Positions 5,253-7,320 of a DNA stretch of 7,419 bases are shown here, piece after piece; the first letter of the stretch is position 1, and each line of letters starts with the position of its first letter. Origin of the DNA: Clostridia bacterium. GTDB lineage: Bacteria > Bacillota_A > Clostridia > Oscillospirales > CAG-272. Where the stretch lies: contig JAFTLD010000025.1 of assembly GCA_017452945.1 (NCBI GenBank), forward strand, positions 1 through 7,419, read 5' to 3'. Below the pieces are notes generated by a model. That model did not search any database, had not been told where the DNA came from, and saw only the letters and a program-made list of their open reading frames with translations. The translations under genes were made by a program, and so were the position numbers.

Positions 5253-5283
5253 TAAAATAAAAAATCAACCCGCAGGGGGTTGA
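5253..5283 (-). terminator. Minus-strand intrinsic terminator insulating prfC
   Basis: On the minus strand TCAACCC (5283-5277) pairs with GGGTTGA (5271-5265) around a 5-nt loop and is followed at once by TTTTTTATTTTATA. This would stop minus-strand transcripts coming from the toxin-like region before they reach prfC. The same bases contain the start of the plus-strand -35 box at 5280, so terminator and promoter are interleaved. Confidence 0.7.
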
Positions 5284-5308
5284 CAAAACGCAACAAATGG
5301 AGTATAAT
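5280..5308 (+). promoter_or_regulatory. Consensus promoter of the small RNA
   Basis: Perfect TTGACA (5280-5285), 17-nt spacer, perfect TATAAT (5303-5308). The expected start is about 5315. No open frame with a ribosome site follows, and a terminator lies only about 40-85 nt downstream, so it drives a short RNA. Confidence 0.85.
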
Positions 5309-5314
5309 GATAAC

Positions 5315-5402
5315 GTAGGAGCACCGGTAACGGTCGACTTCCTCGTGAAAAGATTAAAGATAACCGCTTCAGATTGGTCGTCGTGGGTGGTTATCTTTTT
5401 TT
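5315..5402 (+). ncRNA. Small RNA of about 88 nt, possible antisense antitoxin
   Basis: A consensus promoter and an intrinsic terminator bracket a short transcript without a credible ORF. Its 5' half folds as AGGAG/CUUCCU enclosing ACCG-GUAA-CGGU, a four-pair stem capped by a GNRA tetraloop (ACCG 5323-5326, loop 5327-5330, CGGU 5331-5334). A short A-rich single-stranded stretch follows, then the terminator stem. The 3' end overlaps, in antisense, the stop codon and last bases of a toxin-like peptide remnant on the minus strand. That convergent arrangement with a shared terminator is the one seen in Fst- and BsrG-type type I toxin-antitoxin loci. The RNA and its borders are well supported; the antitoxin role is inference. 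It matches no riboswitch consensus that I know, and it is followed by its own terminator and a separate promoter for the next gene, so it does not look like a leader. Confidence 0.6.
5356..5402. terminator. Shared terminator of the small RNA and the convergent toxin remnant
   Basis: AAAGATAACC (5356-5365) pairs with GGTTATCTTT (5389-5398) over 10 bp across a 23-nt loop. On the plus strand the stem runs into TTTTTTT (5396-5402). On the minus strand it runs into TTTAATCTTTTC, a weaker but usable U-rich run. The loop is large for a terminator. Confidence 0.75.
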
Positions 5403-6923: not shown

Positions 6924-7014
6924 GGAGATGTACTCAAGTGGCCGAAGAGGCGCCCCTGCTAAGGGTGTAGGCCGGGTAACCGGCGCGAGAGTTCAAATCT
7001 CTCCATCTCCGCCA
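6924..7014 (+). tRNA. tRNA-Ser (anticodon GCU), CCA encoded
   Basis: Class II cloverleaf. Acceptor GGAGATG (6924-6930) pairs with CATCTCC (7004-7010), discriminator G 7011, then encoded CCA. The anticodon stem CGCCC (6951-6955)/GGGTG (6963-6967) closes the loop CTGCTAA with anticodon GCT at 6958-6960, reading AGC and AGU serine codons. The long variable arm GCCGG-GTAA-CCGGC (6971-6984) is typical of tRNA-Ser. T arm GAGAG/CTCTC (6987-6991, 6999-7003) with loop TTCAAAT. Monocistronic: own promoter upstream and a terminator stem that begins at the CCA end. Confidence 0.97.
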
Positions 7015-7050
7015 AAAAATTCGACAAGTTTCGACTTGTCGAATTTTTTT
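7014..7050 (+). terminator. Terminator of tRNA-Ser
   Basis: ATTCGACAAGT (7019-7029) pairs perfectly with ACTTGTCGAAT (7034-7044) around a TTCG tetraloop. The stem extends by A-T pairs into AAAAA on the left and TTTTTTT (7044-7050) on the right. Very strong, and symmetrical enough to act in both directions. Confidence 0.95.
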
Positions 7051-7052
7051 AT

Positions 7053-7209
7053 CCAAGCCGCAGGCTTGGTATATCATCGCCGCACAACGTGCGGTGTATA
7101 TCATCAGCCCCTCCGGGGCTGTATCTCATCACGCGCCAGCGTGTATCTTCCTGCGGCTTGATGATATGCAATTCCTTGCGGAATTGATGATATACACGGC
7201 TCTGCCGTG
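7053..7209. repeat. Array of short hairpins with conserved inverted linkers
   Basis: Seven units in about 157 bp. H1 CCAAGCC/GGCTTGG (7053-7069, loop GCA); H2 CCGCAC/GTGCGG (7080-7094, loop AAC); H3 AGCCCC/GGGGCT (7106-7120, loop TCC); H4 CACGC/GCGTG (7130-7143, loop GCCA); a half unit CCTGCGGCTTG (7150-7160); H6 CAATTCC/GGAATTG (7169-7186, loop TTGC); H7 CACGGC/GCCGTG (7195-7209, loop TCT). Linkers are TATATCATC (7070-7078), GTATATCATC (7096-7105) and GTATCTCATC (7121-7130) on the left, and the inverse GATGATATGC (7160-7169) and GATGATATAC (7186-7195) on the right. Stems differ in sequence but are all perfectly paired; linkers are conserved. No protein is encoded. The function is unknown; likely a dispersed repeat type of this lineage. 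Confidence 0.8.
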
Positions 7210-7320
7210 ATCAGAACGCGACAGTTCAAACCCAAACGAAATAACGGAAAAATATCTTATTTATCGTCCATTCACAACAAAAAAGAACCTACCGCGGTGG
7301 GCAATGTCATTAAGTTAAGA
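7210..7320. other. Gene-free stretch after the hairpin array
   Basis: No ORF with a ribosome site, no promoter and no RNA gene is seen on either strand. One imperfect dyad, CCTAC-CGCG-GTGGG (7288-7301, one G-T pair), is present. The sequence between 7220 and 7290 is A-rich and unstructured. Confidence 0.5.

Follow-up and report, generated by a model that had tools for sequence, protein, structure and literature searches.

A clostridial family of hairpin arrays with conserved, inverted linkers behind tRNA genes is linked to PF05635 four-helix-bundle proteins

For more than 25 years, the 23S rRNA intervening sequence (IVS) has lacked a clear origin and function; it has been called selfish, with an unknown mechanism of mobility, and in Coxiella two or three tandem heptamers, depending on the strain, stand just before its S23 gene (PMC4990558, excerpt). 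In CPR bacteria, an S23-family protein is found in insertions in 16S as well as 23S (PMC11270868, excerpt). Genes of the same family, PF05635, are listed as associated with cas loci (PMC3936711, excerpt), and a resemblance of PF05635 to Avd of the diversity-generating retroelements has been noted (PMC10053308, excerpt). Among dispersed repeats, the REPIN-RAYT system consists of small inverted hairpin repeats, each type tied to an adjoining partner gene (PMC3116915, excerpt), and the heptamer arrays of cyanobacteria and Beggiatoaceae are short fixed repeats with suspected horizontal spread by an unknown mechanism (PMC4679880, excerpt).

The locus described here lies in a window of 7,419 nucleotides (the whole stretch of DNA that was analysed, from Clostridia bacterium contig JAFTLD010000025.1) and shares features with each of these systems. 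Like the 23S rRNA IVS, the hairpin arrays have a stable-RNA gene as their site, inverted repeats and, in gene-bearing copies although not in the window copy, the same protein family (PMC4990558, excerpt). However, the IVS lies inside 23S rRNA, whereas the hairpin arrays lie behind tRNA or tmRNA genes, tRNA-Ser in the window, and they differ further in carrying a terminator, variable hairpins and a promoter. IVS elements are cut out of the transcript by RNase III. The partner of REPIN is a Y1 tyrosine transposase, whereas the partner of the hairpin arrays has a non-catalytic-looking four-helix-bundle fold; furthermore, the palindrome is conserved in REPIN, while here the linker is conserved and the stems vary (299 inserts, 109 stems). 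The pair of array and PF05635 protein works in the manner of REPIN-RAYT but has another partner; the protein makes it a relative of the S23/IVS elements, whose defining site it does not share. The cyanobacterial heptamer arrays have no variable hairpins between their units, and PMC4679880 does not mention 'four helix'. A point in common is that several plasmid PF05635 genes are bracketed by inverted heptamer arrays. Like a MITE-like derivative, the hairpin arrays are multi-copy, with occupied and empty sites. A CRISPR array has constant repeats with non-self-complementary unique spacers; the constant parts here are 10 nt long and switch strand, and the inserts are self-complementary.

The window array consists of six hairpins and one half unit behind the tRNA-Ser gene, in the following order.

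6924..7014, plus strand: tRNA-Ser (gct), the gene preceding the element (ARAGORN)
7014..7051, plus strand: intrinsic terminator, probably element-borne; inverted repeat (arms 7014-7029 and 7034-7049) and T run, recurring before arrays elsewhere
7053..7069, plus strand: hairpin A, perfect stem; its first arm is also complementary to 7150-7160
7069..7078, minus strand: linker 1, GATGATATAC by motif
7080..7094, plus strand: hairpin B, perfect stem
7096..7105, minus strand: linker 2, GATGATATAC by motif
7105..7121, plus strand: hairpin C, perfect stem
7121..7130, minus strand: linker 3, GATGAGATAC, the same variant as in 73 of 817 linkers
7130..7143, plus strand: hairpin D, perfect stem
about 7143..7149, plus strand: decayed linker GTATCTT, with a GTAT-stretch counterpart in other arrays
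7150..7160, plus strand: half unit, complementary to 7054-7064 of hairpin A
7160..7169, plus strand: linker 4, GATGATATGC by motif
7169..7186, plus strand: hairpin E, perfect stem
7186..7195, plus strand: linker 5, GATGATATAC by motif
7195..7209, plus strand: hairpin F, perfect stem, then GATC; last unit of the window copy

The initial annotation had described the region 7053-7209 as six perfectly paired hairpins and a half unit with loops of 3-4 nt, and this description was confirmed. The stretch 7053-7212 holds six hairpins that do not overlap, each with a Watson-Crick stem unbroken over 5 bp or more and a loop of 3-4 nt, a number reached by none of 1000 dinucleotide shuffles of the same stretch (mean 0.4 hairpins, maximum 3). 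With stems of at least 4 bp, 1000 such shuffles gave a mean of 1.3 hairpins and a maximum of 5. The array region also folds far better than its shuffles, with z = -6.2 as RNA of the plus strand and z = -6.5 as DNA of the minus strand. Read on the plus strand, the linkers of the left half are GTATATCATC at 7069 and 7096 and GTATCTCATC at 7121, and they are complementary to the inverted linkers of the right half, GATGATATGC at 7160 and GATGATATAC at 7186. This single flip of linker orientation in mid-array makes the window array a large inverted repeat. The half unit between the two halves, CCTGCGGCTTG, is complementary over its full 11 nt to hairpin A, the first hairpin. The window copy retains the tRNA-Ser gene, the terminator, hairpins A-D, the half unit, and hairpins E and F. 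Counting clear linkers only, it has three in the left half and two in the right ('---++'), a form found in 11 of 138 arrays, and its right half is one unit shorter than that of the commonest form, three linkers each way ('---+++', 33 of 138). No partner gene was seen among the ORFs listed up to the window end, and Rfam gave no match in the window at gathering scores.

The pattern is not single-copy. A search for two linkers flanking 9-20 nt, the count from which is a lower bound, found it in at least 118 stretches of public genome contigs. By their record titles, the hosts are metagenome-assembled Clostridia, Oscillospiraceae, Clostridiales, Christensenella, a few other Clostridia and one Bacillales, and many of the records are from ruminant gut; nearly all of the genomes surveyed are incomplete metagenome assemblies. 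The closest relative found to the window genome is G016 (the genome of locus L002), in which prfC is 79% identical over most of the gene. Clustering of the linkers in the listed loci and the window gave 138 arrays, of which 77 have inverted halves, 60 have one orientation and 1 is of another kind. The one-orientation arrays (L006, L008, L010, L014, L044 and others) have all their linkers pointing the same way, and in L008 the hairpins show a higher-order repetition. In L217, L017 and L216, some inserts are hairpins of about 35 nt, of the GAATGTATA...TATACATTC and TCGTC...GACGA types, compared with the usual 9-20 nt.

The stems in other copies stay paired while their sequences vary, as had been supposed from the window alone. 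In the 147 distinct arrays among all loci collected, the 519 inserts have 299 different sequences and 109 stems, and 426 of the 519 have at least four pairs, against 18.8% for randomly re-paired arms. The linkers are conserved: of 817 found by motif, 500 are GATGATATAC, 155 are GATGATATGC and 73 are GATGAGATAC, a conservation that is partly by construction, as the motif allowed only 1-2 mismatches. A closer comparison is given by 13 gene-linked arrays, among which 52 pairs have proteins with an identity of 80% or more. In these pairs, hairpins at the same position are identical in 5 of 189 comparisons, whereas 2908 of 3120 linker bases match; of the 28 differing hairpins of equal length, 21 change the same pairs on both arms. 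Structure and linker are thus retained while the stem sequence is free, which bears out the central point of the initial annotation. The complementarity of the half unit recurs in other arrays: the half unit and the counterpart of hairpin A share a complementary run of at least 8 nt in 53 of 103 arrays, compared with 24 of 1030 mismatched pairs, and this match rate is lowered by the inclusion of some arrays that were read starting at the far end.

What gene accompanies the arrays? All-against-all clustering of the ORFs around them showed one small protein that recurs in 13 loci, in 10 of them at 100 nt or less from the array. This 115-aa protein belongs to PF05635/TIGR02436 (S23 family, four-helix bundle), a family for which we know of no function. 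Its predicted model (pLDDT 94.6) matches the S23-family structures 2rld and 2gsc. The model also resembles Avd of a Bordetella phage retroelement (4dwl, 8ub7), with TM-scores of 0.75-0.84 and weak Foldseek E-values of 0.01-0.2, a likeness that is one of fold only; a diversity-generating retroelement has a reverse transcriptase with template and variable repeats. The order of the fuller element is tRNA, terminator, array, promoter and PF05635 gene. In inverted-type arrays, TTGA with a -10 box at 15-19 nt is found at 21 of 81 far ends and at none of 67 hairpin-A ends, and in gene-bearing copies this far-end promoter match precedes the partner gene. PF05635 matches are present in 47 of 50 array-bearing genomes (46 over the cut-off) and in 29 of 149 genomes sampled across the phylum (26 over the cut-off). 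In the genus of the window, 9 of 21 genomes have arrays, and a close cognate protein is found in 4 of these 9 and in none of the 12 others (p = 0.02). No paper listed in searches of a mostly open-access journal literature links PF05635 to repeat or hairpin arrays.

The linker word goes with the clade of the adjacent protein. In 70 loci around PF05635 genes, 30 of them returned by the PF05635 search and 40 hand-picked regions among the matches listed, so that they are not a random sample, 15 of the 16 matches of the array-linked clade have GATGATATAC linkers upstream. The exception, in L226, lies between two arrays, of the GATTCCATAC type upstream and of the GATGATATAC type downstream. The clade was delimited with a profile from 11 array-region proteins at a threshold (score 196) chosen after the list had been viewed, and 7 of the 16 matches are in loci that the array search had already brought up. 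The other 9 were reached by way of the protein instead, and every one of them has a GATGATATAC array upstream. Other PF05635 clades have upstream arrays with other words, including GATTCCATAC, GATTACATAC, AATGATG, ATGAAAT, ACTTCAC, ATATCGA and more.

These words can be counted without a given motif. In the flanks of 79 PF05635 genes, 67 from the 70 loci of array-bearing Clostridia genomes and 12 of 22 plasmid records (6 matches were dropped, 2 as weak fragments and 4 with short upstream sequence), some 7-mer occurs at least five times in 66; the same holds for none of 69 stretches taken at random and for 9 of the 244 other ORFs (p = 4e-45). In 65 of these 66, the repeat is in both orientations, upstream or across the gene. 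The other 13 genes have fewer than five copies of any 7-mer; five are no better than shuffles (L184, L199, L232, L238 and L239), and two of these five are at contig ends. Protein identity and shared linker words are correlated, with a Mantel r of 0.52 (n = 76; 0 of 5000 permutations), and with r = 0.355 when the window-type linkers are left out (n = 49; 0 of 5000), although the permutation leaves in the shared descent of gene and flank, which could give a correlation without binding. Sister families use different linkers across most of the array yet have the same layout and, in a minority of cases, the same hairpins: of 37 distinct GATTCCATAC inserts, 8 also occur among the GATGATATAC inserts. 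This argues for a function of the word itself.

The inverted-type arrays prefer sites behind tRNA genes. A co-directional tRNA end is found within 600 nt upstream of 33 of 67 PF05635 genes, compared with 18 of 516 other ORFs. Of 58 inverted-type arrays, 30 have a tRNA 3' end facing them within 140 nt, compared with 35 of 4000 random positions. In 40 of 60 cases, a 14-mer of the terminator between tRNA and array also occurs in the terminator of a tRNA of another isotype, compared with 11 of 82 for tRNAs without such arrays; some of these 82 may precede arrays with linkers of another family, which would reduce the contrast. The window terminator, with 0-2 changes and followed by an array, is found in L025, L049, L057, L069, L086, L095 and L182; in L057, L095 and L182, ARAGORN identifies the preceding gene as tRNA-Gln. 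As this terminator recurs with arrays at other tRNA loci, it seems to travel with the array. The initial annotation had placed the array right behind a tRNA terminator; the position behind the tRNA stands, but the terminator appears, from its recurrence, to be the element's own. The loop motif GTCTAC was considered as a mark of the element and is a weak one, present in 10 of 60 terminators before arrays and 6 of 82 others. A duplication of the tRNA 3' end as the target duplication of the element is also unsupported (8 of 59 with arrays, 15 of 78 without).

It had been suggested that copies be checked for interruption of otherwise syntenic regions. A tRNA-Val/rsmA site in the genus of the window allows this comparison at 17 loci before rsmA, and it is occupied by arrays in some relatives and empty in others.

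GATGATATAC arrays: G035, G038, G040, G045 (partial), G046
Single left-over hairpin: G034, G044
AATGATG arrays: G032, G039, G043 (remnant)
No array: G029, G037, G048
Degenerate or rearranged: G016, G041, G042, G047

The G032 array runs directly into the -35 box ahead of rsmA. Two genomes, G032 and G046, carry the cognate gene downstream of tmRNA, and two others, G035 and G040, carry it downstream of tRNA-Val. At the differing sites in G032, G035 and G040, the cognate genes are 82-84% identical in DNA, which is about the identity of prfC (80-82%), so no recent jump is seen. G035 has an array at the same tRNA-Ser as the window, with largely different hairpins and a different terminator, and 17 other tRNA-Ser-type loci in the genus have no array in the stretch inspected.

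We propose a minimal mobile element that inserts directly downstream of tRNA and tmRNA genes and whose PF05635 partner reads the linkers; the window array would be a solo copy of it, probably a shortened one. We hold this proposal to be slightly on the probable side. The fuller form would consist of its own intrinsic terminator, an array of about 160 nt, a promoter that uses the array end as its -35 box, and the PF05635 gene. The linkers of the array would run one way up to the half unit in its middle, which matches the first hairpin by complementarity, and then the other way. The PF05635 protein, a relative of Avd in fold, would recognise the linker, and the hairpins would space the linkers and keep them accessible in single-stranded or extruded DNA. 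Protein and array would jointly promote copying into new sites behind stable-RNA genes. No enzyme that moves the arrays was found in the analysis, which counts against a mobile element, and we therefore propose the four-helix-bundle protein as a recognition partner, with the catalytic enzyme supplied in trans. The analogy with Avd raises the possibility of a step through RNA or cDNA, which is speculation. The solo arrays would be either non-autonomous movers or remnants. Other observations also count against mobility. Most arrays are solo, with a cognate-type gene within 600 nt in only 5 of 46 inverted-type arrays; none of 37 one-orientation arrays is at a tRNA, and none of 31 has a cognate gene within 600 nt. 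The divergence of the cognate genes, similar to that of prfC, points the same way, as do the lack of a tRNA-end duplication specific to arrays and the lack of a partner gene among the ORFs of the window. If the proposal is correct, an element that brings its own terminator, sits behind a tRNA and leaves the next promoter usable has a low-harm lifestyle in the genome.

The array could instead serve as an operator or buffer. The PF05635 protein would then bind the linkers upstream of its own promoter and regulate itself, solo arrays would remain after loss of the gene, and the arrays would spread because similar sequences beside tRNA genes recombine in the ordinary way, with no dedicated mobile element involved. 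The position of the array between terminator and promoter in gene-bearing copies and the restriction of promoter matches to the far ends (21/81, against 0/67) both fit this explanation, and the tracking of linker and clade suits a regulator equally well. However, the many gene-less arrays, the same terminator at different tRNAs and the two linker families at one site resemble dispersal, and in many plasmid cases the repeats stand on both sides of the gene, unlike an operator. We regard this explanation as unlikely. The initial annotation had offered three readings: a non-autonomous repeat family, a protein-binding array read through its linkers, and a structured RNA. The first two both gain support from the tracking of the linker with the adjacent PF05635 clade. 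A structured non-coding RNA, for which the array would be transcribed, would account for the strong fold (z = -6.2), the compensatory changes in the paired stems and the complementarity of hairpin A and half unit. Yet in gene-bearing copies the array stands behind a terminator and upstream of the promoter of the gene, both strands fold well, and Rfam has no match; moreover, the sequence-free stems and the presence or absence at one site suit a repeat better. This reading has gained no specific support and is very unlikely.

Two further explanations concern how the repeats are maintained or moved. Palindrome correction by template switching predicts perfect stems with free sequence change, as is seen in the arrays, and under such neutral upkeep the linkers would be what is left over between the stems. 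The collapse to one hairpin at rsmA in G034 and G044 also fits slippage or recombination. Neutral upkeep leaves unexplained the conservation of the linkers, their coupling to PF05635 clades and the preference for tRNAs, and we judge it a shade less probable again than a structured RNA; template-switch correction may, however, keep the stems perfect within the mobile-element model too. The lowest probability, a very small one, we give to a REP-like repeat spread by a Y1/RAYT transposase, even though the palindromes, inverted layout, intergenic spread and partner gene beside the repeats are as in REPIN-RAYT (PMC3116915, excerpt). The small gene that recurs beside the arrays is PF05635, and within the genus PF01797 is missing in 5 of the 9 genomes that carry arrays, among them G035, which has the most; this absence is weak evidence because the genomes are incomplete. 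PF01797 matches 10 of the 21 genus genomes in all.

Repeats beside PF05635 genes are also found beyond the Clostridia. At the 12 plasmid loci covered, out of 22 records (cyanobacteria, Treponema, Bernardetia and Monoglobus), the PF05635 genes are mostly bracketed by inverted short repeats, as in L258 and L261, with TTCGTAA before the gene and TTACGAA after it. Nine of the 12 reach five copies of a 7-mer, and L262, L263 and L264 have four. In L253 and L257 (Nostoc and Anabaena plasmids), the PF05635 gene lies between cas2 and cas1 on the opposite strand, flanked by repeats of the AAAAAGT type, and looks like an insertion into the cas operon. In the phylum-wide PF05635 sample, 11 of 28 genes reach five 7-mer copies (p = 2e-7 against other ORFs); a more sensitive repeat score picks out 19 of the 28, although 2 of the controls, of which there were only 7, score positive as well.

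Extending the mobile-element model, we put forward more tentatively, at somewhat under even confidence, that minimal mobile elements with inverted arrays of a short cognate repeat form one large, unnamed class, and that PF05635 proteins serve as their recognition partners throughout bacteria. The 23S rRNA IVS, part of the cyanobacterial heptamer arrays, the PF05635 insertions in defence operons (cas, restriction) and the tRNA hairpin arrays would be branches of this class. In each, the protein would read a word of 7-10 nt that is exchanged throughout the array as the protein changes (GAT-GAT-ATAC, GAT-TCC-ATAC and GAT-TAC-ATAC), and by analogy with Avd it would possibly act on RNA or cDNA. The joint change of repeat and protein gives a direct prediction, that each PF05635 protein prefers its own linker. 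The link between repeat and protein also offers an alternative explanation for the cas-associated PF05635 genes and for some heptamer arrays.

Several minor observations were made in the course of this work. A GATGATATAC array in L137 (G040:C18) lies between ORFs that, judged by eye, resemble phage head genes. In viral contigs, the pattern was found in a single stretch, L338 7468-7499, inside a phage structural gene (ORF 6339-7829), and this match is probably due to chance. Of 137 tRNAs examined, 23 are followed by elements of about 100-250 nt between the tRNA 3' end and a second copy of the tRNA end (L163-L178, at tRNA-Ser loci, and L273, L274 and L276), and a different small element family seems, from these sequences, to use tRNA ends. 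In the window, a 14-nt near-copy of the T-arm of tRNA-Ser is present at 7217-7230, 3' of the array. Finally, the window has at 5280-5402 a promoter-like TTGACA-17-TATAAT followed by about 90 nt that end in a hairpin and a T run. This interval, with no ORF of its own listed and no Rfam match at gathering scores, is possibly a small RNA gene.
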